Positions 8,234 through 26,223 of a DNA stretch of 54,891 nucleotides are shown here, piece by piece; position 1 is the first letter of the stretch, and each line of letters begins with the position of its first letter. This DNA is from a virus. The position numbers and the translations under genes are program-made. The notes under the pieces are model-generated. The model made no database searches, was not told the DNA's origin, and saw only the letters and a program-made list of their open reading frames with translations. The stretch spans positions 1 to 54,891 of the IMG/VR virus record IMGVR_UViG_3300032173_000007. The stretch is one strand, 5' to 3'.

Positions 8234-9715
8234 CTATGCGACTTTTCGGTAGCGCAATGTGGAACCGGCTTTTATAGTGATGGTGCCGGTAGTCTCGGCG
8301 GCGAAGCGCAAGACCCAGGTGCCTGCGCTCGCTCCTGTCTTCAGGATGCCATGTAGAATCCCGAAATTGTAAGTAGTAAAGGGGCTTGCGGAAGTCGTGG
8401 TAACTACATCATTGGCATTATATGATGAACTATCCGGCGTCCCGGCCGCTGCATCGCTTACGAAGAAACCAGCATTTATGGCCGGGCTATTCGTTGCCGA
8501 GGCGCTCACCTGGATGCCAACTGAGGTAGCGGAAGAGTTCCACAGTAAGAAAACTTCAATGATATAAGTCGAATTGGCGTCGGCGTTGAAGGTTAAGCCA
8601 GTAGCGTCGGCCAAGGTTGTGGTAGAATTGGCAGTATCCGCTGACTTGACAACAATAATTTCACTTTCTCCGCCCCCAACTGGCGTTTCTCCCACAATGC
8701 TTGTCCCGGATCGCTTGAGATATTGGCCATCTGCCACCGCTCCCAGGGTCAAATTGGTTGGGCCTCCGGTTTCCCTTAACCCCCGCACATCCGGGCTGGT
8801 CGGAGTATTGCCAAGCTGCCCGCCGATTTGCACATGTCCGGAATGGGGGGCGGAGGCTGCCAGATGAGTATCAATTGTTGCATGAGTATTGGTGCCGATG
8901 TCGGTAAGAGAGGTATGGGACTTGGTGGTGATGTCGGCAATGTTGGAGGTTGTCTTGTCAATCTGCGCCCAGGTGCCGATGGTGCCGGAGTGCTTGGCCG
9001 ATCCGTGGGTCTGGGCCGGAGCGTTGCCAGAGGCATCAAAGCCATGCACACTGGCGGTCAGGGCAGCATGAGTGGAGATTGCACTGTCTCTGGCTCCCTT
9101 GGTATCTATATCACCCGATGCACTGGGATCAGCTACTGCGGCCCTTGCCGAAGCATCCCGAATTATAATCCGGTTTGCAGTAGCGGTCGAAACGGCACTA
9201 TGGGCCGTGGTTAGATTGGCATGAGTGTCCACTTTTGCCTGACTGCCAGAAGCACTTTCCACCGTGCTGGCCCCCACTCCGTGGACGCCGGTGGTAAGAG
9301 TGGCGTGGGAATCAACTTTGCTCTGGGAGCCCGAAGTGCTTTCAACACTGCTTCCGCCTACCCCGTGAATGCCGGTAGTCAAGGAGGCATGGGCAGGAAC
9401 CGGATCGGTGGGTGTTCCGTGCGTATGGTCTCCACGGGAATAAGTAGTGGCGGATCCGGCTGCCGAACTTTGGCCGAAACTGGTCTCAGCCGTAACTGTA
9501 TCTGATGGTGTTCCACCGCCCCCTCCTGAAGGCACTTGCCAGGTTTGATCACCACGCAGATATTTGGTATTATCTGCTCCCTCCCCACCCAGATTCACGG
9601 TGGGAACTTTAGCATTGGCATCCAAAGGAGCATAGCCGTTGGCCTGCGCCTTATTCACCAACTGCTCAAAAATTGTCAAGTAATGAAGCTTGTTTCCAAT
9701 CGTGCCATCGCTCAT
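8234..9715 (-). CDS. Tail fibre protein with HxxLTTGxHGVG repeats
   Basis: The 493-aa protein starts with a helical head (about residues 1-25) and a GD-containing segment (KYLRGDQTWQVP) typical of phage fibre proteins. Repeats of the type HASLTTGIHGVG..VES.SGSQ.KVD run over about residues 109-175, followed by more His-rich collagen-like or HTH-T type repeats. A C-terminal beta-sandwich (about residues 355-493) is probably the receptor-binding or trimer-tip domain. Fibres bind the host surface. AAAGGA precedes the ATG. Confidence 0.85.
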   Translation of the reverse strand: MSDGTIGNKLHYLTIFEQLVNKAQANGYAPLDANAKVPTVNLGGEGADNTKYLRGDQTWQVPSGGGGGTPSDTVTAETSFGQSSAAGSATTYSRGDHTHGTPTDPVPAHASLTTGIHGVGGSSVESTSGSQSKVDSHATLTTGVHGVGASTVESASGSQAKVDTHANLTTAHSAVSTATANRIIIRDASARAAVADPSASGDIDTKGARDSAISTHAALTASVHGFDASGNAPAQTHGSAKHSGTIGTWAQIDKTTSNIADITTKSHTSLTDIGTNTHATIDTHLAASAPHSGHVQIGGQLGNTPTSPDVRGLRETGGPTNLTLGAVADGQYLKRSGTSIVGETPVGGGESEIIVVKSADTANSTTTLADATGLTFNADANSTYIIEVFLLWNSSATSVGIQVSASATNSPAINAGFFVSDAAAGTPDSSSYNANDVVTTTSASPFTTYNFGILHGILKTGASAGTWVLRFAAETTGTITIKAGSTLRYRKVA

Positions 9716-9725
9716 GTTTTATCCT

Positions 9726-11378
9726 TTACCATGTCGCCAACTGTCGCCAAGCGGCCTCGCAATACATCTTCAGGGTATTGTCGAAGGTATTAATGCACAT
9801 AAGACCCTCATGCACTTGGGCCGGATCGCCCGTGTCTGTTTTAATCAGCACGCCCGCTATAATGAGCTTTCCTGTCCCTGACTCGGCCATCATATGGAAG
9901 CCGGCCTTGCCTGCAGTAGCATTTATATCCGCCACCCACATCTGCGCCATATCCGCAGGAGCGGTGGTGGGGGCAGTGCCGGAGGCATGGCCGAGGACTT
10001 TGGCGGCGGAGGTGCCAGCGGCTGTGACACTTATGAGAACGTTGCCTGCATTATCGATTCTCATTCTTTCATAATCAGTGCCACCAACTCTTGTCCAAAA
10101 TGAGATACCGCCCACATTATTGGAAGCATTTTGAAATTCAATATAACCTCTTCTGTTGGGAACACTAAAGTTAGAACCGACTCCCAAGAAATTGCCAATT
10201 GTTGTCCCCGCTTCAGCAAACTTGAACCCAGCGTAACTGGTATTGGTAGCAAAATTCACTCCAATATATTTAGCATCGCCATAGACTTCCAAATTATAAA
10301 GTGGACTCGGCGTCCCGATGCTGACCTTCGTCCCATCTGTATATATCGGGGAGTTCGCCAAGCCAGTAGCATCGCTGATGTGGTAGGGGAGATAGCCGTC
10401 GGTGAGGCCAGAAAGTTTGACGGTAACAAAAACGGGAGAGCTGGCCTGCTTCACGGCTTGGTCGAGGTAACTATCAATGGTAGCGTGGGTTAGCGTCCCA
10501 ATGTCGGTAAGATTGGTATGAGAGCGGTTGGTGATCTGAGTGATATTGGTTAAGGTAATGGTATCAGGGATATCTTCATCGCTAAGTGCAGCTGCCGAGA
10601 GTATGCCACCAGTAGCTTTCACAAATCCGCTAAATCCAGTCAGCGTAAGACCGGCAAAAGTGGGAGAGCTGGCCTGCTTCAATGACTGATCAAACCAATC
10701 TCCCAAGGTGGGATTACCAGAGAGAGTAATAATACGGTTGGCTCCGCCAAGGGCAACAGTAAGATCATCTCCACTCGCATCAGTCAGCTTGACGACTTCA
10801 TTGCCGGTCAGGGAAGTGAGTTTTACCCTGCCATAGGTAGCACCATCCAAAATGTTATCAAGCGTCAAGGAAGAATCGTTAATCTTGTAGGTCTGTCCGG
10901 CAGGAATGTTAATCGAACCGGCATCATCAATGGTGGGCAAGCTTCTCTGTATTACCCATCCACTTTCTCCGTCAAAGCGAGCAATAGCATTATCGGCAGG
11001 AACAGCCCCACTAAAAATGATAGCAGTTTCCTGACCCACTTCAATCTTTTCTGTAATCGCAAGTGTCCTATCCGCAGGCAAAGAAACCTTGCAGATTCTC
11101 CTCCTGGTGGCTCCCGATGCCCACTCCACTGTTACCACTACTGTAGCAGTATCCTTATTGTGAATATAGATACTCTTGATTGCCCGCCTGGTAGCAGCCG
11201 CAGGGGGTTCCACAATGGTAACTTCGGTAGTGTTATTTAGAACACCCTCACTCCCACCCTCAGTGAAAGTAGTGGCAGTATGGTCGGCATAAGAGGCCAC
11301 AAATTCCGGCTGATTGGCAGCTACTACTCCAGCCAGATAAGCAACAATACTTTCAGATGTAGAATCAAGGATGATCAT
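9726..11378 (-). CDS. Tail fibre / structural protein
   Basis: The 550-aa product starts at ATG 11378, overlapping the upstream stop as ATGA; a start 13 codons upstream is less likely. The first ~115 residues (LAGVVAANQPEFVASYAD...) match a domain common in uncultured-phage fibre proteins. Middle repeats include DQAVKQASSPxF units. A later region has a trimer-like 'GTxAAKVLGHASGTAPTTAPADMAQMW' arrangement, and the C-terminus is the usual fibre tip. It is likely a virion host-recognition or appendage protein. Confidence 0.82.
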   Translation of the reverse strand: MIILDSTSESIVAYLAGVVAANQPEFVASYADHTATTFTEGGSEGVLNNTTEVTIVEPPAAATRRAIKSIYIHNKDTATVVVTVEWASGATRRRICKVSLPADRTLAITEKIEVGQETAIIFSGAVPADNAIARFDGESGWVIQRSLPTIDDAGSINIPAGQTYKINDSSLTLDNILDGATYGRVKLTSLTGNEVVKLTDASGDDLTVALGGANRIITLSGNPTLGDWFDQSLKQASSPTFAGLTLTGFSGFVKATGGILSAAALSDEDIPDTITLTNITQITNRSHTNLTDIGTLTHATIDSYLDQAVKQASSPVFVTVKLSGLTDGYLPYHISDATGLANSPIYTDGTKVSIGTPSPLYNLEVYGDAKYIGVNFATNTSYAGFKFAEAGTTIGNFLGVGSNFSVPNRRGYIEFQNASNNVGGISFWTRVGGTDYERMRIDNAGNVLISVTAAGTSAAKVLGHASGTAPTTAPADMAQMWVADINATAGKAGFHMMAESGTGKLIIAGVLIKTDTGDPAQVHEGLMCINTFDNTLKMYCEAAWRQLATW

Positions 11379-11578
11379 ATCCCCATCCAGGAAAAAGCCA
11401 AATTTAAAATCATACAAGCATTAACTTTAGTATCCGCTTCCGATTCTGAACAAACAAGTGGATCAAGTTGCGCTAAGGCGATGACCCCATCATCATTGGG
11501 ATCATAAACTGCCTTCAGCATATCTCCTGTCCCGCCGCCACCAACAACAGGTTTATCTAAATGACTTTTATTTAACAT
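11375..11578 (-). CDS. Small fibre-module protein with GDMLKxVYDxNxDG motif
   Basis: The 67-aa protein contains GDMLKAVYDPNDDGVIALAQ, the short motif that recurs at the start of many phage tail-fibre segments, often followed by trimerisation repeats. Here it is a stand-alone gene, translationally coupled (ATGA) to the fibre gene downstream. It may be a detached fibre N-terminus or connector. The last residues (MILNLAFSWMGI) look like read-through of the overlap. Confidence 0.65.
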   Translation of the reverse strand: MLNKSHLDKPVVGGGGTGDMLKAVYDPNDDGVIALAQLDPLVCSESEADTKVNACMILNLAFSWMGI

Positions 11579-11580
11579 GG

Positions 11581-11871
11581 TTACCAAGCCCAAGCCCTGA
11601 TTTTATCACCACCAGTGGTTCCCTTAATAAAAATACTATTTTTGGTCGTAGTGTTTAGCGTCAAAGATTCTCCTGGCTTCAATTCCGCTTCTACTGTAGC
11701 ACCATCCCAGGAAGCTGATACTATATCAGTTGCTGAATCATTAGTTATCGTAATTGAATTTACTCCACCGCCAAAGACCCGCTCTACATAGAGATTGGTT
11801 GTTGTATATTCCTCATAGAAACTGATTGGACCGCCGACAATTTGAAATGGTCTCGATCCATCTTCAAACAT
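11581..11871 (-). CDS. Hypothetical structural protein
   Basis: The 96-aa, beta-rich, Thr/Gly-rich product starts at ATG 11871, which overlaps the upstream TGA (TGATG) and has AAAGAGG upstream. The pattern VERVFGGGVNSITITNDSATDIVSASWDGATVEAELKPGES looks like a small beta-sandwich (immunoglobulin-like or fibre-knob) domain. It is probably a tail-appendage decoration protein. Confidence 0.65.
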   Translation of the reverse strand: MFEDGSRPFQIVGGPISFYEEYTTTNLYVERVFGGGVNSITITNDSATDIVSASWDGATVEAELKPGESLTLNTTTKNSIFIKGTTGGDKIRAWAW

Positions 11872-12422
11872 CAGACAACCTCTTTCCCGCAATTCTGGCA
11901 GATATACCGTGGTTTTACTACATCGACAACTCGTTCTCGGAATTTAGGCCTGTCAACGATTACCTCCCGTTCCACAAGAACAGGTTTGTCAACCTTGACC
12001 TCAATTTCTACTTTTTTTTCAACGGGAACAAGATTTACATCATGAACGATGACTTCTTTTGTTACATATTTCGGCTGTTCGATGATTTTTTCAACGAACT
12101 TCGGAACAATAACCTCTTTGACCACTTCCTTGACTACCAGTTTTTCTACATATTTGGGAACCTCGATGATTTTTTCGATTTCTTTGACAACGACCTTCTC
12201 AACCTCAACTATTTTTTCTACAAAGACAGGCCGTTCAATAATTACATCCTTAAACTTTGGCCTTTCATATATCTTATCGACATATTGAGGCTTTTCAACG
12301 ATGATTTTTTTTTCAATAAAGGATGGTCGTTGAACCTCCACATCAACGAAAGAAGGCACTTCAACCACCCTTTGAATTACTTTGGTTTCCGTATCTACCT
12401 TAATTCCTGTTTCAAATGGCAT
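11871..12422 (-). CDS. Charged VPxY/RPxF repeat protein (alveolin-like) with C-terminal zinc knuckle
   Basis: The 183-aa protein consists almost wholly of about eleven short repeats of [VRKQ]-P-x-[FYL] spaced by Val/Glu/Lys-rich strands, for example EKIIEVPKYVEKLVVKE. It ends in ICQNCGKEVV, a zinc-knuckle-like pair. This composition closely resembles the charged repeat motifs of eukaryotic alveolins, which form filamentous cytoskeletal sheets; here the resemblance is probably convergent. The gene has GGAGATATAAA before its ATG and lies among structural genes, so a filamentous or fibrous virion part is a plausible role (inference). Confidence 0.85.
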   Translation of the reverse strand: MPFETGIKVDTETKVIQRVVEVPSFVDVEVQRPSFIEKKIIVEKPQYVDKIYERPKFKDVIIERPVFVEKIVEVEKVVVKEIEKIIEVPKYVEKLVVKEVVKEVIVPKFVEKIIEQPKYVTKEVIVHDVNLVPVEKKVEIEVKVDKPVLVEREVIVDRPKFRERVVDVVKPRYICQNCGKEVV

Positions 12423-12803: not shown

Positions 12804-15800
12804 TTATTTTGACTCTTCTAAGAAAAAGGGCCTAATCGACTCCGGTCTCTGTTTCATTTTTTCAAACATCTCCCAAGTCTTCACTTTTTGTTGTTCCTGT
12901 CTCAATCTTCTTTTCTCTTCATCCGTTGGAGCAGCATCTATTTTATTTTCATACCAAAATTTTAAAGTCGTTGGGTCTAATAACTGATTCATAATACGTT
13001 TATCTAATGATTTTTTAACTTCTTCCGTGAGATGTCCACGGTGGAATTCCCATAAATTTTTTGAAATTCTGGCAAAGCTATCAGAGGCGATGTATTCTCC
13101 AGGAGACATTCCTGATTTTATAAAATCTTCTTTAATCTCCAGCAAAATCCCAGCTTCTTGTTGTTCAAGTTGTTTTATTCTTTCAAATTCTTCATAGTTG
13201 ATTTTTCTACCATCAGGTAACACTATTTCCAACTTCTCATTATAATCCCGTATTCCTAATGCAGGGAGCCCAGCAAATTTGTTAAAAACTTCTTTTATCG
13301 CTTGGGGGGGAGGTTTTAATTTGCCTTCTGTCTCACTAATATATCCACTAAGCATAGGCATAATACATTTGGTAAAATAAAGAGTGTCCCGCCATATTTT
13401 TTCTCTTTGTGTCATTTTGGAAACATCCATAAAAGGATAAAGAGGTTGGTTATCCATTGGATCTTTCCTGTCAATGAGACCCCGGAGAAACCTTACAATC
13501 GGACTTGTAAGATAGACAATCCCCTTGACTTCCTTAACTCCCCAATGTTTTATGGTATCTACAGCTGCTTTTTGTAATGTTTTTTCGCCATTGAGATACA
13601 TATTTAGTTGAGCGATAGCAACGGAAAATATTTTCGTTCCTATAAGAGCATCTTGCGGGGTTTGCATGTTCCATGTTCTGATTCTTCCATCATCGGCTCT
13701 ACCTAAGACAACATGGAATCCCTCTCTTACCTCTTCCGGCACTTGCATTTCCATTTTCTTAATTTCATCATTTCTATTATTCAAAAGCATTCCTGCTATT
13801 GGCAAAGTCAATAGACCCCCTACTCCTTTTAAAGGATGTTTCATTGTATATTGCCATATCAATTGTGAGCCTTTGAAATACCATCTCCCAAATGGGAAGA
13901 GAAGACCCCTTATCACTCGATTATAAGTTTTAGAGGTAGCCTCATAATCAATGACTATTTCTCTCGCTATTTGGCCTAAAGCTGCCTCCGTGTTCAATCT
14001 TCCAGTATTGATCCAATCAAAAGATTGTCTTACCTTTTCCCCATTTCCTTTCAGGTTTTCTTCAAATAAATATCTTGCATTGGCGGCTCTCAAAATAGAT
14101 TCTCTAAACTGCGATATTTTTTGTGATTTTTGCAATAACCATTTTAGCGGATTACGAGTTGCTCTGATGTGAGGAAGCTCCCTAATAAAAGTAGCACCTA
14201 AAATATCATTATCAGTTAAGAATTTTGCAAATGCTTTATCATATGCAGTATAGTTTTCAGGTTTCTTTATTAAAAAAAAGAGGGCATCATCGACTTGTGA
14301 CAGCAATTTGAAAGGCTTAGGATGTTGTAAAACTATCATCCAAGTATCCCCTATGAAGTTATTGATATTGTATCTTGGGAATACCGACAGAATCGCAGAG
14401 GATTTAAAATAGGCATTGGCTTTGTTAATGAAATACCATGCCTTAGAACCTCTGGGAGAGAAATTTTCAAAAACATTATAAATTTCCTCTGGTAAGAGAT
14501 AAGTTTTCTTTTCTCTGCCAATTGCCATTTCGCCTTCTTCTGTGGGATATATTTGTCTTGTAAAAGGCTTATCGGGCGAATATGCTCTATATCGTTTGCC
14601 GTCTATGTTATATATTCTACCTGCCTTAGCATAAGGTCTAACTCTTCCGGCTTTATCGACGCCAAAAAGATTTACTTTTTTATCTCTATCAAGAGTAGAT
14701 GTAATATCATATTTTTCGGCTTGCTCCATGATAAAATCTTCTAACATATTATCCGCATCTACTTCGGTCAAATAATCAAGAAGTGATTCAGCATCTTGAC
14801 GATATTCTTTGGTAGTGCCTACGGCCTTTTTAGTATAACCTCTAAATGGCCTTCTTAATTTAGAAGGTATGCCAATGGCGGGAGCCCAGTCCGGTGTATA
14901 ATCAATTACATAATGTCTTGTATAATCCTCAAAAGTATCTTCTGGATCTAATTTCCCTCTCCTGATAAGTTCAGTTTGATATATTTTCGATATTTCTTTC
15001 CATCTGTTAGCAGCTGCAATTTCTTTAGCTGATGCTGTTTTTTCAAGGTTTGCAAGTCTATCTTGCACTTCTTCAAGGGTTACTTCCGGGTTTCCTTTGC
15101 CCAACTTTTGTCTTTCTACTTCACCCCTCATATGAGCAATCGCAGCTGCCTTTGAAATCTCAGCATCATCCATACCTCCAAAAAGGGATATCCTATGTTT
15201 TTCCCTTTCTGCATAGAGTTTCCTTGCACGCCCGATAAGATTCGTTCTTACAGCATTTTGGAACTCAAGGGGGGCTTTCTTATAAAAAGTAAAAGGCTCT
15301 ATGATTGCTTTAAATTTGTCTTCAATCTTTTTAACAAGATTACGAACAAAGCCGATTTCTTTTGGTTTTTGAGCTGGAGGGACTTCTGGCTTGGTCGGTA
15401 ATCTGATAAGACCAGCTTGACCTGCCTGTTTTTCTCTTTCTTGCCCTTCTCTAAAAAGTTCATCAAGTCTTGGTTGCGCCCTTTCTTCCTCCGCCTTTCT
15501 TGTCGCCTCCATTAGAGGCGATTCCTCAAAATCAACACCCCTTCCCTCAATTGGCTCGGTGGGCATCCGACGTTCGGTTTTCAATCCGGTAAGCATGGGT
15601 TCTTCAGCGGTTGCCTTGGCAGCCTCAATTGGCGTCTCTTCTGGTTCCCCGAACCATCCCTTTGTTCCCGCCAACATTTCCTGCCGTTTTTTCCTTCTTT
15701 CTACTGCTTCATGCTGACGGCGAAGTTTTACTTCCTCCAAGGCGGCGTCAACAATTGTTGCTTGTTTCTTGGCAAGTTTCTGGCCCTTGATTGCTTTATC

Positions 15801-18023
15801 AAGAGCTCTGATGACTTCTTTCTGAGTCCATCCTTTATTCTGCATCCATAGAGGATAAGTAGATTTGGTTCGTCTGACAAATTCGCCTTCTTCGGTAAAA
15901 ATATCTCGTGCGGGTTCGCTTACTTCTACTTCGCCAATTAGTTCATTAAGGTAAGCATGATATCTTTCAGGGATATTTTGAGGAGTAATTTCTTCAGTAA
16001 TCGGTTTCACTTCTGGTTCGGGAGGAGTTGCTACTTCAGCTTTTGGCAGTTGCCTTCCCGGCATTCCCTTCACAATATCTCTATTTAGGACTACCCAAGT
16101 AGTAGCATCCCCCTCTTTGAACTTGACCGAATCATATCCTTGCTCTTCAACTAATTTTCTTATGATGGGAAGATTTTTCCCTCGGAATAATTGGTAAATA
16201 AATGCCGGTCGATAACCTTCATCAAAGGAGGTATTACCCGTGATTTCTTCCATGGTTGCATTATCTTTGATGCCGAGTGCTTCAAGAGTCTTGACAATAT
16301 CTCCATAATCCCACAATTCCCCTGACTTACTATACCCAGTAAGATCCAAGGTCTTTTGTGGTGTAATCTCAACCTCTGAAACTCTGGGGGCATAACCTTC
16401 TGGTTTCGGGCCAACCAATATCTCTGGCAATGTTTCTCTTTGCATCGCATATGTAGAAGCCACTTCGGGGGATTCGGATAAAAATAGTAAGTCGGCATTC
16501 GCTTCGGCGATTCTCTTTAGTTCAGCCTTAGTTATTTCTTTTTTGCGTAAATCGTCCAATAACTCTCTGTTCCTCTTAATGTTATAGGATAATTCCTCCC
16601 TATCTACTCTTTTGGTAACAGATAACATGGGGTTCTTTTCTATTTCTTTTTCAAGTGCATTGAGCTGCGAAACCATCTGGGACGTTCTTTTTTCTATATC
16701 TGAAATAATTTTGTCTGGAGTCCAGTCAAGCACATCATAAACGGTTTGTAGCCTGAGTATATTGGGTTTTTCGCCTAATGCACTTACCATATCACCACGG
16801 TATAAAGTAATCGGTTTCGCTTCTGGTTCAGGAAGAGTGGGAGTTATTTCCTCTGGCTCTCTCATAGGACGAGTCTCTGCTGCTTCAATTTCCGTTTTCG
16901 CTTTTGGTTCAACATCAGGTATCTCCCACCCTTTTTCTTCTTTAACAGCACCCAATACTTCTTCTGGACTATAGAAGTTTTCCCCTTCAAAGAGCCTTCT
17001 CGCCATTACATCCAACTGTTTAGGCGTCGCTTGTTTCCCATATGATGTTTCCAAGGTATCTCTTATGGCCTCAAGACCTAACCGTGCTGCACCTTCCGGG
17101 AAAGGAGAAGGCGGGGCCACTTCTACCGGCGGAACAATTGGGGGTGGAGGCGTGACAGCCGCAGGCGGCGCAGGAGTCGGAGGAACAACTTCAGCAGTAG
17201 GAACGGCAGGAGATGGTGTCGGTTTCACTCCAACGGGAGCGACGGGTTCAGCCGCAGAAGGTGTAACCTTCTGGGGTTCTACTGCCGGTTTGACTTCTAA
17301 TGGTTTCTTTGTCGCAGGTGGCCTTTCCAAAACTGGTCTTGCCAACCTTCCCGTTACGGCCTGTACCCCTCTTCCTGCTCCACCCAGAACCATTATGGCA
17401 CTTAAAAAATCCATACCTTCATTGATGACCAGATTTCCTACTTTCCCCCAATCACTTTTGGGAAGTCGATTAAGTTGTTTGTATGCCGGGACAGCCTTGC
17501 TTATTTCCTCTGCTGTCCATTCAGCTATTCGCCGTGGAAAGCCAAGTAGATTTCCTACAAATTCAAGATTTCTTTTAGTCTCCTCAAGATGTGGTTGGGG
17601 AATGATTAGAGGCATTATTTTTTGAAGGACGGCTTCTGTGTCCTTTTTGGCGGTTTCATAACGCTCACCACTGAGCACTCCACCAATGGTCCCGCCTATA
17701 GTTGTTGCAGCTTCAATAGGATATGCCATAAGTCCACCAGCAAAATCTATGGCGGTTTCAGGAATGGCCAAAGCCTCTCGCCCCAATCCTTTTAAGGTCT
17801 CTAAAGCAAGGGGAGCTTTTGCCTTTGGAACCTCTGCTGATTTCATCATCGCCCGCCCAGCCGCTACTTGCTCAGGAGATAAGGGGAATTTGGAAGATTT
17901 TGGCGGCCGTTCATATTCAATATCTTCTTCGGCGATGTCTAATAATTGATGACCTGCCGTTTTCTCCTGGGCCACTGGGGCTGCAAGTTCAATATCTTTG
18001 TCTTCAATATTGACAAGAGGCAT
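12804..18023 (-). CDS. Giant polyvalent ejection protein with ADP-ribosyltransferase-like domain
   Basis: The 1739-aa protein is one of the largest products here. The ATG at 18023 overlaps the upstream stop (TAATG), with AAGGAG 11 bases away. Residues ~235-310 form a Pro/Val/Ala-rich linker. Residues ~405-655 match the ART-type domain of phage polyvalent proteins: LYRGD, then FLSESPEVASTYA, then EQGYDSVKF and TTWVVLNRDIV. Long charged helices (~660-900) follow, then a domain near ~910-1140 and a hydrophobic C-terminal region (~1210-1600) like large polyvalent-associated domains. Such proteins are packaged and injected with DNA and may modify host targets. NAD use and the target are inferred, not shown. 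Confidence 0.85.
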   Translation of the reverse strand: MPLVNIEDKDIELAAPVAQEKTAGHQLLDIAEEDIEYERPPKSSKFPLSPEQVAAGRAMMKSAEVPKAKAPLALETLKGLGREALAIPETAIDFAGGLMAYPIEAATTIGGTIGGVLSGERYETAKKDTEAVLQKIMPLIIPQPHLEETKRNLEFVGNLLGFPRRIAEWTAEEISKAVPAYKQLNRLPKSDWGKVGNLVINEGMDFLSAIMVLGGAGRGVQAVTGRLARPVLERPPATKKPLEVKPAVEPQKVTPSAAEPVAPVGVKPTPSPAVPTAEVVPPTPAPPAAVTPPPPIVPPVEVAPPSPFPEGAARLGLEAIRDTLETSYGKQATPKQLDVMARRLFEGENFYSPEEVLGAVKEEKGWEIPDVEPKAKTEIEAAETRPMREPEEITPTLPEPEAKPITLYRGDMVSALGEKPNILRLQTVYDVLDWTPDKIISDIEKRTSQMVSQLNALEKEIEKNPMLSVTKRVDREELSYNIKRNRELLDDLRKKEITKAELKRIAEANADLLFLSESPEVASTYAMQRETLPEILVGPKPEGYAPRVSEVEITPQKTLDLTGYSKSGELWDYGDIVKTLEALGIKDNATMEEITGNTSFDEGYRPAFIYQLFRGKNLPIIRKLVEEQGYDSVKFKEGDATTWVVLNRDIVKGMPGRQLPKAEVATPPEPEVKPITEEITPQNIPERYHAYLNELIGEVEVSEPARDIFTEEGEFVRRTKSTYPLWMQNKGWTQKEVIRALDKAIKGQKLAKKQATIVDAALEEVKLRRQHEAVERRKKRQEMLAGTKGWFGEPEETPIEAAKATAEEPMLTGLKTERRMPTEPIEGRGVDFEESPLMEATRKAEEERAQPRLDELFREGQEREKQAGQAGLIRLPTKPEVPPAQKPKEIGFVRNLVKKIEDKFKAIIEPFTFYKKAPLEFQNAVRTNLIGRARKLYAEREKHRISLFGGMDDAEISKAAAIAHMRGEVERQKLGKGNPEVTLEEVQDRLANLEKTASAKEIAAANRWKEISKIYQTELIRRGKLDPEDTFEDYTRHYVIDYTPDWAPAIGIPSKLRRPFRGYTKKAVGTTKEYRQDAESLLDYLTEVDADNMLEDFIMEQAEKYDITSTLDRDKKVNLFGVDKAGRVRPYAKAGRIYNIDGKRYRAYSPDKPFTRQIYPTEEGEMAIGREKKTYLLPEEIYNVFENFSPRGSKAWYFINKANAYFKSSAILSVFPRYNINNFIGDTWMIVLQHPKPFKLLSQVDDALFFLIKKPENYTAYDKAFAKFLTDNDILGATFIRELPHIRATRNPLKWLLQKSQKISQFRESILRAANARYLFEENLKGNGEKVRQSFDWINTGRLNTEAALGQIAREIVIDYEATSKTYNRVIRGLLFPFGRWYFKGSQLIWQYTMKHPLKGVGGLLTLPIAGMLLNNRNDEIKKMEMQVPEEVREGFHVVLGRADDGRIRTWNMQTPQDALIGTKIFSVAIAQLNMYLNGEKTLQKAAVDTIKHWGVKEVKGIVYLTSPIVRFLRGLIDRKDPMDNQPLYPFMDVSKMTQREKIWRDTLYFTKCIMPMLSGYISETEGKLKPPPQAIKEVFNKFAGLPALGIRDYNEKLEIVLPDGRKINYEEFERIKQLEQQEAGILLEIKEDFIKSGMSPGEYIASDSFARISKNLWEFHRGHLTEEVKKSLDKRIMNQLLDPTTLKFWYENKIDAAPTDEEKRRLRQEQQKVKTWEMFEKMKQRPESIRPFFLEESK

Positions 18024-19588
18024 TAAGGTCTCCACTCCTTCTTGCTACCATCTGGCAATTGATAGACCGGATTGCCGGTCTTTTTGCTTTTACCAATATA
18101 TTTTGCCCCAGGAGGCAAGACTGTTGCTGGTTGGACTTGACCACTTATGCGTTTTTTGATACCGCCAACTACCTTGCCCACTGCCTCCTTGGCTGCCTTA
18201 CCAAGTTCCTCTGTTGTGGTGGTAACTCCTGTTGGTGGAGCACCCTTAGTTGTCCCGGGAGGTAATGTGAATATTTGTCGTCTTTCCGGAGGAGCTACCT
18301 TCTTTCTGTATTCCTTTGGGGCATACTTTATTACCTCATCTCGTTCAGCTTCAAGGGACACAACGGCTTGATTAACTGCTTCTGGATTTTGGACTTTATT
18401 TATGCCAGCCAACCACGGGAATTGTCTGAGTGATTCAGGATCAACCGCAGTTGAACCCTTCAGGGTTGCTATGGCCTTATTGATTGCCGCTATGCGGGCC
18501 ATTGCTTGCTTTGGGGTATATTCCGGTTTTTCGCCTGCCGATGGTTTTTCTGCAATCTTTACGACATCGCCCCATTGGGGTCTCTTGTTCGCATCTAAAC
18601 CTAAAAAGGCGCCTTCATATTCTTTTCCATCTTTACCTATAAATCTTACCCGTTTCCCTATTGGATATGGTAAACGTTCTTCTGCTTTTGATTTTTTAGA
18701 AATTTCTTCATCGATTGCTTTGATAACAGAACTATCCTCACCATATCTTTCTTTTAATCTCTCTCTGTCTTCTATAAGTTTACCTATATCCGATACTGGT
18801 TTTCCCGCTTGCTCCGTCCAAGGGACTACACCTTCCGGAGGTGTTTCTCCCGGTTTAATCCATGTAATTTGACCGGTCGGGGTAACAAATCGCTGTGGTT
18901 CATATTCTTTAGGCGCCTTGGGAAGCGCCTTTGCTTGATAAAAACCCCTTCTTATTTCTTCAATCGGTTTACCCAATGCTTTTTGCTCTTTATAGTAACT
19001 TTCCCATTCTCCTGGAATCTCTTCTTTAGCTATTTCTTTTTCAAGTTGTCTTCGCCTGAGAATATTCATTGGCTCTTCATATTCTCGTGCCTTCCGTTCC
19101 TGATAAGCCTGCCCGGCAATCTGAGCCAAAACATTTCCTGCTCTGGCCCACGGGGTTTGCAGACCGGTAGGGCCTGTCCCAAAAGCCCCGCCAAGGGCCC
19201 CGGCAATCTGGACAAACTGATCCAGCGGCATTCGACCGAATACCGGCGTTGACCAATAATCCGTTTCTGTTTTTGTAGAGGGGGGAGCCGATTTTTCCAA
19301 AGATACATTTGTTGGAGGGGCAGATGCCGCCGGTGTTGCTGGATTAGGATAAGGAGTGCTTACAGATGCAGGCATAGATGGACGGGAATAAGGATTCCTT
19401 AACAATACATTCTCATAAATATCCGTCTTGCCTTCTTCAGAAGATAATGGTTTGGCTCCCAAACTATAAGGTTGTGTCTTCAATATCTCTTTAATAGCAG
19501 CCAGTATAGCATTTTTAGTATCTTCAGATCCGATAGGGATATTTTCCCCGGGAGTCAATTCTTGTTTCGGTTTTAAAAGTCCATTCAT
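18023..19588 (-). CDS. Internal virion / ejection protein
   Basis: The 521-aa protein is Pro/Lys/Glu-rich with a flexible N-terminus (about residues 60-105) and a glycine-rich hydrophobic patch (VQIAGALGGAFGTGPTGLQ, ~125-145). Helical regions follow, then an SH3-like segment (PYPIGKRVRFIGKDGKEYEGAFLG) and a small beta C-terminal domain. It lies between two glycine-zipper membrane proteins and the 1739-aa protein, where P22-like phages place gp7/gp20/gp16-type ejection proteins. GAGGAGG precedes the ATG. Homology to a named family is not clear. Confidence 0.7.
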   Translation of the reverse strand: MNGLLKPKQELTPGENIPIGSEDTKNAILAAIKEILKTQPYSLGAKPLSSEEGKTDIYENVLLRNPYSRPSMPASVSTPYPNPATPAASAPPTNVSLEKSAPPSTKTETDYWSTPVFGRMPLDQFVQIAGALGGAFGTGPTGLQTPWARAGNVLAQIAGQAYQERKAREYEEPMNILRRRQLEKEIAKEEIPGEWESYYKEQKALGKPIEEIRRGFYQAKALPKAPKEYEPQRFVTPTGQITWIKPGETPPEGVVPWTEQAGKPVSDIGKLIEDRERLKERYGEDSSVIKAIDEEISKKSKAEERLPYPIGKRVRFIGKDGKEYEGAFLGLDANKRPQWGDVVKIAEKPSAGEKPEYTPKQAMARIAAINKAIATLKGSTAVDPESLRQFPWLAGINKVQNPEAVNQAVVSLEAERDEVIKYAPKEYRKKVAPPERRQIFTLPPGTTKGAPPTGVTTTTEELGKAAKEAVGKVVGGIKKRISGQVQPATVLPPGAKYIGKSKKTGNPVYQLPDGSKKEWRP

Positions 19589-25047: not shown

Positions 25048-26223
25048 TCAATCCTCCTTTATTCTTCTAAACCAGAAGCCACAAGGGGTGTGTTTCTCTT
25101 CAGTCGCAGGTTCTTCAGTCCAATATGGATTATTGATATATCCCAATTTAGAGAATTCATATTCATAGGCACCCGCACCTACTGCTAAACCTATACAGAT
25201 AAGTGATCCGCCACCCAAGATACTTGCACTTCCAAAAGCACTCTTTTTGCCGCTTGCAATTAAGGAGCCGCCACCAGAAATTGAAGCCGTTCCACTAATT
25301 CCTGCTTCTTCGCCTCCCCAAGTTCCCCAAGTTGGTTCGGTAGCTCGATAGTTTCTAACAAAGATTTCATCAACATCTATGGTTCCTGTTTCTTGGAAGC
25401 GACAGCCATATTCATCCATAGCTTGGCTACTGCCATAAATGTTTTTGGCTAAATAAGAATTGCTATCTATCCAATAATCTACTTTGTTGGTATCATAAAC
25501 AAAAATTTTAATTTTATGCCAGTTGGCATTCTCTGTTATCGCATTAAACCAATAAGGACTGTCATTAGTTAAATATTGAAAGGTGGTTGGAGTAGCCGAT
25601 CGTCGAACGGCACACCTATAACCACCTGCGGAATAAAGTATAAATTCACTATTTCCAATATATTTTACCCTTGCTTCAACACAATATTGAGCTCCAGGTG
25701 AGAGAGAACCTCTACTTCCCCTATAAGTAACAGCAGTAGCAATTGATTCAACGCCTTTTCCGGAAAAGCCACCAACTATGGTAAGGGTGCTACCGTTCGT
25801 TGGATTTTCAGCTTCGGTCCATCCAGACGGAATAACCCCCACTGTATCGTCTTCAAAGTTATCGAAAGCCAAGAAGGTATTATCCCCGTTACTATAGGCG
25901 GAAGCTTCGGCATTGCCGTAATACATATAAAAAGTCGTTGCATCCGTTCCAATGGAATCAAATTCAATCCAAACGGTAGCAAGCTGATTGGGAGTGGTGC
26001 CGGTTATGGATTCAATCCAATAATCGAGGAGGGTTGTGCCGTCAGCGGTAGTAAAGCGAAGATCGTCAAAATCAGTTTGGACATGACCGTTGCAATCTAC
26101 ATCTTCGCCTGTGGCTCCCGCAGTTTCTCCAACCAAAAGCTTCATTTGGTAGTTAGTTACGGCACCAGAAGCCCGAGAGAGAGTTATTGCTTTCCTATAA
26201 GACCAACCGGTTAACCAGGCCAT
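25048..26223 (-). CDS. DUF2341/laminin-G-like adhesin protein
   Basis: The 391-aa protein opens with the DUF2341 signature: WSYRKAITLSRASGAVTNYQMKLLV, then DFDDLRFTTADGTTLLDYWIES, then LATVWIEFDSIGTDATTFYMYYGN. A concanavalin/laminin-G-like sheet (about residues 125-295) follows. The Gly-Ser-rich C-terminus has two repeats (ISGTASISGGGSLIASG and FGSASILGGGSLICIG) and ends in NPYWTEEPA...HTPCGFWFRRIKED. This suggests a carbohydrate-binding fibre. It is coupled tightly to the propeller gene. Confidence 0.82.
   Translation of the reverse strand: MAWLTGWSYRKAITLSRASGAVTNYQMKLLVGETAGATGEDVDCNGHVQTDFDDLRFTTADGTTLLDYWIESITGTTPNQLATVWIEFDSIGTDATTFYMYYGNAEASAYSNGDNTFLAFDNFEDDTVGVIPSGWTEAENPTNGSTLTIVGGFSGKGVESIATAVTYRGSRGSLSPGAQYCVEARVKYIGNSEFILYSAGGYRCAVRRSATPTTFQYLTNDSPYWFNAITENANWHKIKIFVYDTNKVDYWIDSNSYLAKNIYGSSQAMDEYGCRFQETGTIDVDEIFVRNYRATEPTWGTWGGEEAGISGTASISGGGSLIASGKKSAFGSASILGGGSLICIGLAVGAGAYEYEFSKLGYINNPYWTEEPATEEKHTPCGFWFRRIKED

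Follow-up and report, generated by a model that had tools for sequence, protein, structure and literature searches.

An alveolin-like repeat protein with motifs at even-numbered spacings, encoded beside fiber genes in environmental phages

Alveolin-type repeat proteins shape malaria parasites and their relatives, where they belong to a filament beneath the alveolate cell membrane (the subpellicular network of apicomplexans), and the alveolin models in the literature examined are predictions. Their repeat arrays are about 140 residues long, and motifs in the described Plasmodium alveolins recur every 12 residues. Some alveolins also carry cysteines near an end, as three closely spaced residues arranged as one plus two (PMC5223771). 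Single alveolin chains are predicted to be unstructured, a twisted beta-ribbon being predicted only for specific pairs (PMC12465100). The other comparable group comprises the epiplastins and articulins of Euglena, cryptophytes, and Caulobacter, for which the published ABD criteria are a valine content of 25 ± 7%, isoleucine of 9 ± 4%, charged residues of 35 ± 6%, near absence of glycine and alanine, and a net charge that is near neutral or negative (PMC6212826). The main text of that paper makes no mention of phages, and no description of alveolin- or articulin-type proteins in phages was found in the open-access papers searched.

The window analyzed in this study is a 54.9-kb IMG/VR virus record, taken at its full length, in which a minus-strand gene encodes a charged repeat protein (Table 1). 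The gene runs from an ATG at 12422 to a stop codon at 11873-11871, is preceded by a Shine-Dalgarno sequence (AGGAG, 12434-12430) located 7 bases ahead of the ATG, and has a stop codon that overlaps the start of the downstream gene (TGATG). A preliminary description of this DNA had given the coordinates 11871-12422 and a length of 183 aa, both of which were right, and the open reading frame (ORF) list places the gene on the minus strand. A plus-strand ORF across the repeat gene (212 aa, rich in F, D, and N) was discarded as an antisense shadow.

Compared to alveolins (IMCp, PF12314), the phage family contains near-exact EKIVEVP heptads, and it shares repeats built of V, P, E, and K and a single chain that is predicted to be unstructured. 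The repeat arrays of its family span 118-152 residues, a range that includes the alveolin value, and cysteines near an end are common to the phage protein and some alveolins. In contrast to the alveolin pattern, the phage motifs are mostly 10 or 12 residues apart, with an even number in all but 2 of 260 spacings, the terminal cysteines form a CxxCG cap, and the protein is short, without long flanking domains. The settings also differ, since the phage protein is encoded in a virion block within a fiber cassette and alveolins belong to a filament under the membrane of an alveolate cell.

Table 1. Positions of the repeat gene, its parts, and neighboring genes in the window
Feature	Position	Strand	Basis
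Charged beta-repeat protein, 183 aa	11871..12422	-	ORF; AGGAG Shine-Dalgarno; about 40 homologous loci
N-terminal tag MPFETG..., M-[GPSA]-F-x-x-G, common to next gene product	12387..12422	-	
Repeat array, residues 19-172, 11 P-x-[FYL] motifs at even-numbered spacings, single unbroken two-residue phase	11907..12368	-	
C-terminal cap, residues 165-183, ending VVKPRYICQNCGKEVV, conserved	11874..11930	-	Cys175/Cys178 invariant; CxxC cap in 27/27 cassettes
Lone CxxC pair, putative half of a Cys4 zinc site	11889..11900	-	Sequence; no other Cys in protein
Upstream cassette gene, 120 aa	12424..12786	-	19-relative cluster adjoining repeat gene; phrog_28213 weak, 1.5e-4
Downstream cassette gene, ~97-aa jelly-roll/beta-sandwich protein	11581..11871	-	AF2; structure matches; 18 loci
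Short ORF with NKSHLDKP, like fiber-protein starts in related loci	11375..11593	-	
563-aa fiber-like protein	9726..11417	-	Position and repeats; no significant PHROG match
493-aa fiber-like protein	8234..9715	-	SHTSLTDIGTNTHATIDTH-type repeats; no family match

Motif Parity and the Proposed Rod

The window protein contains exactly eleven [VRKQ]P-x-[FYL] motifs, in agreement with the approximately eleven noted beforehand, whereas 2000 shuffled versions contained a mean of 0.5 and a maximum of 4. Its most abundant residues are V (25%), E (15%), K (15%), and I (10%), with P at 7%. Tandem Repeats Finder detected no tandem duplication in the gene at the DNA level, and the repeat units are therefore old and diverged. 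Among 31 relatives, the spacing between successive P-x-hydrophobic motifs was even in 258 of 260 cases, most often 10 (116 cases) or 12 residues (47 cases), compared to 259 of 564 (46%) in the other proteins encoded at the same loci. Even spacing was also found in 150 of 152 cases in 18 sequences below 50% identity and in all 88 cases from ten loci that were recovered later through a neighbor-gene search, none of which had been used to find the rule.

A single two-residue phase extends through residues 13-183 of the window protein without a slip, and the two phases differ sharply in composition. On the proline phase versus the other phase there are 25 versus 2 Glu, 12 versus 1 Pro, 11 versus 35 Val, 3 versus 24 Lys, and 0 versus 9 Arg, while 11 of the 12 Phe/Tyr residues occur on the proline phase. 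Family-wide, 90% of Glu lies on the proline phase and 85% of Lys on the opposite phase. The length of the array, counted from the first repeat proline to the CxxC, is even in 23 of 24 proteins (the lone odd value arises where an N-terminal extension holds the first motif) and mostly ranges from 118 to 152 residues in even steps, which indicates that insertions and deletions preserved the phase. Beyond the effect of the two faces, opposite charges were most enriched at lags of 5 and 7 residues (5-7 best, not 1), and strict in-register pairing was unsupported by this test.

In beta geometry, the face and the hydrogen-bonding edge alternate with every residue, so that prolines confined to one phase leave one edge of the chain without required hydrogen bonds, and each chain would have a single partner. 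The parity rule points to a single long, extended rod that probably consists of two paired chains. With prolines facing outward, antiparallel pairing would bring like faces together (Glu beside Glu, Lys beside Lys), and a hairpin within one chain would turn prolines inward on one arm or pair like charges. Parallel pairing, in contrast, would set each proline-phase residue beside one of the opposite phase, with Glu beside Lys, Arg, or Val; among two-stranded arrangements, it alone would be compatible with both the proline-edge and charge constraints. The best overall explanation, to which we assign a probability of roughly 45%, is that two parallel chains form an extended beta-ribbon rod in the adsorption apparatus, with their C-termini clamped by a shared zinc site. 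Each chain would form a single extended beta-strand over about 150 residues, and the two chains would hydrogen-bond along the Val/Lys/Arg edge with prolines on the free edge, so that the neighbor of each Glu in the partner chain would be Lys, Arg, or Val, and Glu-Glu contacts would not occur. With about 0.33 nm per residue, 118-152 fully extended residues would give a rod of about 40-50 nm; we know of no free-standing parallel two-stranded ribbon of this length. The triple beta-spiral shafts of adenovirus fibers similarly use short, proline-containing beta repeats to make a long viral rod, but their repeats are about 15 residues long with conserved Gly/Pro turns, whereas those of the proposed phage rod are 10 or 12 residues, contain almost no Gly, and maintain a continuous two-residue phase.

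The last residues of the window protein are CQNCGKEVV, and the whole chain contains just two cysteines and a single histidine. The zinc knuckle named in the preliminary description is thus half right, because the terminal CxxCG pair, with only two cysteines in the chain, represents half of a zinc site rather than a complete knuckle with four ligands in one chain. Parallel pairing would bring the C-terminal CxxC pairs of the two chains together, and the two motifs could then bind one zinc through four cysteines and clamp the end of the rod. In Rad50-type zinc hooks and CxxCG zinc-ribbon half-sites, each chain likewise contributes one CxxC and the partner chain completes the site, although the Rad50 hook is located at a coiled-coil apex and the phage motif at the C-terminus of a beta-repeat chain. 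All 16 aligned members retain Cys175 and Cys178, and in this alignment the C-terminal end is more conserved than the middle. The CxxC is absent in 7 of 31 relatives (L003, L019, L020, L023-L025, and L027), and zinc is therefore not essential family-wide. A parallel zinc-clamped dimer is a tentative assignment, with odds somewhat below even.

There are other ways in which such chains could assemble. Antiparallel pairing, a trimer, or a multi-stranded sheet would give a fiber or mesh instead of a two-chain parallel ribbon, and one of these arrangements is possible, if on balance doubtful. Phage fibers are commonly trimeric. In addition, a coiled-coil-like insert in the arrays of two relatives (L023 and L024) could trimerize, and alveolins form networks (PMC12465100). 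However, topology suggests that antiparallel pairing with outward prolines would place Glu beside Glu, and that a sheet would need both edges of the chain, while in 98% of cases the prolines keep to a single phase. Of the fiber or sheet suggested in the preliminary description, the fiber is favored by the even-spacing rule and the fixed place beside fiber genes, and the sheet is less likely because prolines would block one hydrogen-bonding edge. The low-confidence AF2 model of the repeat-protein monomer contained no globular domain or other fold (pLDDT 51), leaving the preliminary description standing in this respect; the model is neutral on the dimer and silent on pairing. For repeats, AF2 is reported to yield unrealistic beta-solenoids (PMC11795689).

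The Fiber Cassette and Its Neighborhood

The repeat gene is located within a block of virion genes, as had been suggested, with genes for P22-type portal, coat, and scaffold proteins (PF16510, 9e-183; PF11651, 7e-45; phrog_8865) upstream and fiber-like genes downstream. The gene order in the window is a 1743-aa gene, the 120-aa gene, the repeat gene, the ~97-aa gene, and the fiber-like genes. The 1743-aa protein (12804-18035) has no clear family match and, judging by its position, is possibly an injected internal virion protein. A 391-aa protein within the virion block (25048-26223) contains a DUF2341 domain (1.7e-18).

The repeat gene forms part of a fixed cassette, consisting of a ~120-aa beta protein, the repeat protein, and a ~100-aa jelly-roll protein, that is usually followed by fiber genes. 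This order was observed at 18 loci, where the ~120-aa protein was not always detected and the head and terminase genes fall into several unrelated clusters. When the ~100-aa neighbor was used as the query, providing a non-circular test of linkage, 27 loci were recovered, and all 27 had, directly upstream, a gene for a charged repeat protein with a C-terminal CxxC. No relatives were confirmed when the 120-aa upstream protein served as the only query, and its family was assembled from the neighborhoods.

The ~97-aa downstream protein was predicted by AF2 to be all beta (pLDDT 85), and structure matches indicate a resemblance to jelly-roll and small phage beta-proteins. A match to an Ena-type pilus (Z 8.9, rmsd 6.3) was set aside as reflecting a common jelly-roll arrangement only. 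The ~100-aa cassette protein is C-terminally fused to other beta modules in L038 (8453-9061), L041 (8435-8917), and L042 (5985-6590), and the module fused in L041 (DYIxLxY...GGSGGSTVATLTLAY) also exists on its own in small proteins of L003, L019, and L032. An N-terminal M-[GPSA]-F-x-x-G tag was present in 13 of 18 repeat proteins and 12 of 18 downstream ~100-aa proteins, compared to 8 of 316 other ORFs (Fisher 2e-14 and 6e-13, respectively, values that are optimistic because the loci are related). The tags of the window lie at 12422-12387 in the repeat protein and 11871-11845 in the ~97-aa protein, and tags also occur in L011-L049, as if the proteins docked on the same site. In the proposed rod, this M-x-F-x-x-G tag would dock the repeat protein and its jelly-roll neighbor on the same virion site, and the fiber and the small beta-proteins would be connected or held apart by the rod.

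In L030, L034, and L049, the next large genes match tail fiber or tail spike families; in L044, the match is to a virion structural protein. Starts resembling NKSxLDKP follow the cassette in L030 (8773), L033 (8929), L040 (6933), and L049 (7522). The motif opens a 1398-aa tail-fiber protein in L030, while in the window and L049 it is found on a separate short ORF ahead of a larger fiber-like ORF. Based on position and the appearance of their repeats, the 563- and 493-aa genes of the window are likely to be fiber-like. The neighborhood with fiber genes is thus conserved in both the 18 loci and the reverse search, and the repeat protein, which is kept in phages whose head genes differ, would be an apparently undescribed part of the adsorption module. 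It probably serves as a structural rod in this adsorption (tail-fiber) module.

A second potential explanation is that the repeat protein is a non-virion assembly factor, acting as a chaperone or oligomerization helper for the neighboring tail fiber. Small genes beside fiber genes often encode proteins of this kind, the repeat gene adjoins genes for small beta-proteins and is usually upstream of fiber genes, and its product is disordered as a monomer in the AF2 model. Nevertheless, this role is unlikely, since a load-bearing rod better explains the even-step lengths and the beta pattern, which holds strictly to two faces over 150 residues, and the N-terminal tag is common to the neighboring beta-sandwich protein.

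Family Distribution and Relation to Alveolins

The approximately 40 homologous loci were obtained from viral-contig scans (~30 loci) and one contig of a Nitrospirae metagenome-assembled genome (MAG), with ten loci found later through the neighbor gene. A search of 11 longer virus records placed the repeat gene at a single site in every one, and the repeat pattern is kept in all 31 clustered relatives, as the preliminary description would lead one to expect. In L023 (4944-5534) and L024 (4971-5534), a helical-looking, coiled-coil-like insert of ~40 residues interrupts the array and is bordered by normal repeats in the same phase. Most relatives lacking the CxxC cap have a small beta-like protein on each side with no sequence kinship to the flanking proteins of the main cassette, and hhalign found no homology among the differing small flanking proteins of the outlying subfamilies. 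The genome collection yielded a single match, L049 (CAJVYE010000014.1), on a phage-like contig in the Nitrospirae MAG, and no more family matches were found in 77 genomes searched as the phylum of L049. This 11-kb contig carries a terminase, the cassette, a fiber gene, and a possible M15-type endolysin. No PHROG family was found for 16 members, and tblastn searches of GenBank phages with the repeat protein, its C-terminus, two relatives, and both neighbors gave no match, a result that is weak for the repeat protein because the low-complexity filter masks it. The repeats had been called unusual in a virus, which holds for cultured phages as represented by PHROGs and GenBank (with the masking caveat) but not for environmental phages, in which the family recurs.

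The sole Pfam match of the window protein was IMCp (PF12314; 16.7 bits, E 0.0096), below the gathering cut-off of 21.1. IMCp was matched by 12 of 16 relatives (best E 1.3e-8), and individual scans of two relatives gave scores above the cut-off (25.2 and 24.4 bits). No IMCp match was obtained for controls derived from one relative (two full shuffles, three face-preserving shuffles, and a reversed copy), indicating that the match exceeds composition. Near-exact EKIVEVP heptads number 22 family-wide, with 1 in the window protein, and the spacing of the P-x-hydrophobic motifs is not uniformly 12. The core of the family agrees with the ABD composition (V 23.8%, I 11.5%, charged 39.0%, G 0.2%, A 0.8%, net charge +0.7), and the proportions of V, I, E, D, R, G, A, S, and T are within or close to the published epiplastin ranges. 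Lysine, at 15.5%, is higher than the 9 ± 4% of epiplastins (PMC6212826). The window array has 20 acid-base dyads in 154 residues, flanked by V/I with short strings between them, as described for the ABD. A near-neutral charge is common to the phage family and epiplastins, whereas the strict motif spacing of the phage family differs from epiplastins, for which no general motif preference was reported (PMC6212826). The alveolin-like character proposed at the outset was therefore supported. At the level of sequence pattern the resemblance to alveolins is real, and the repeat protein looks like, and may work like, an alveolin repeat, although membership in that family is not claimed.

It is improbable that the repeat protein is a true alveolin/epiplastin homolog, whether through transfer between eukaryotes and phages or as a form ancestral to both. 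Homology would be consistent with the best IMCp score and its absence from the shuffles, with the same heptad recurring in the family, and with the IMCp-type match also seen in Caulobacter (PMC6212826). However, a shared structural demand could produce a low-complexity pattern of this kind, the score of the window protein is below the IMCp cut-off, the spacing is mostly 10 rather than the 12 of described Plasmodium alveolins, and the CxxCG cap differs from the one-plus-two cysteines of alveolins (PMC5223771). A charged spacer that is disordered and lacks a defined fold (an entropic bristle) would agree with the unstructured AF2 monomer and the very high charge but is highly improbable, given that parity is kept through insertions and deletions, Glu and Lys occupy opposite phases, and V+I, at 35%, greatly exceeds what a bristle would contain.

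No solved structure matched the phage repeat family by sequence, with nothing credible returned for the repeat protein, its profile, or both neighbors. As a small, single-domain protein with strict parity and defined ends, the phage protein is a far easier structure target than alveolins, and it makes the pairing of alveolin-type repeats directly testable. It is a speculative suggestion, with odds well short of even, that a zinc-capped parallel two-stranded beta-ribbon rod constitutes a new phage architecture and that the parity code is also the hidden rule of alveolin/epiplastin acid-base dyads. If true, the zinc-capped ribbon rod would be a phage fiber architecture not yet known, and the parity code would bear on the unsolved alveolin/epiplastin fold.
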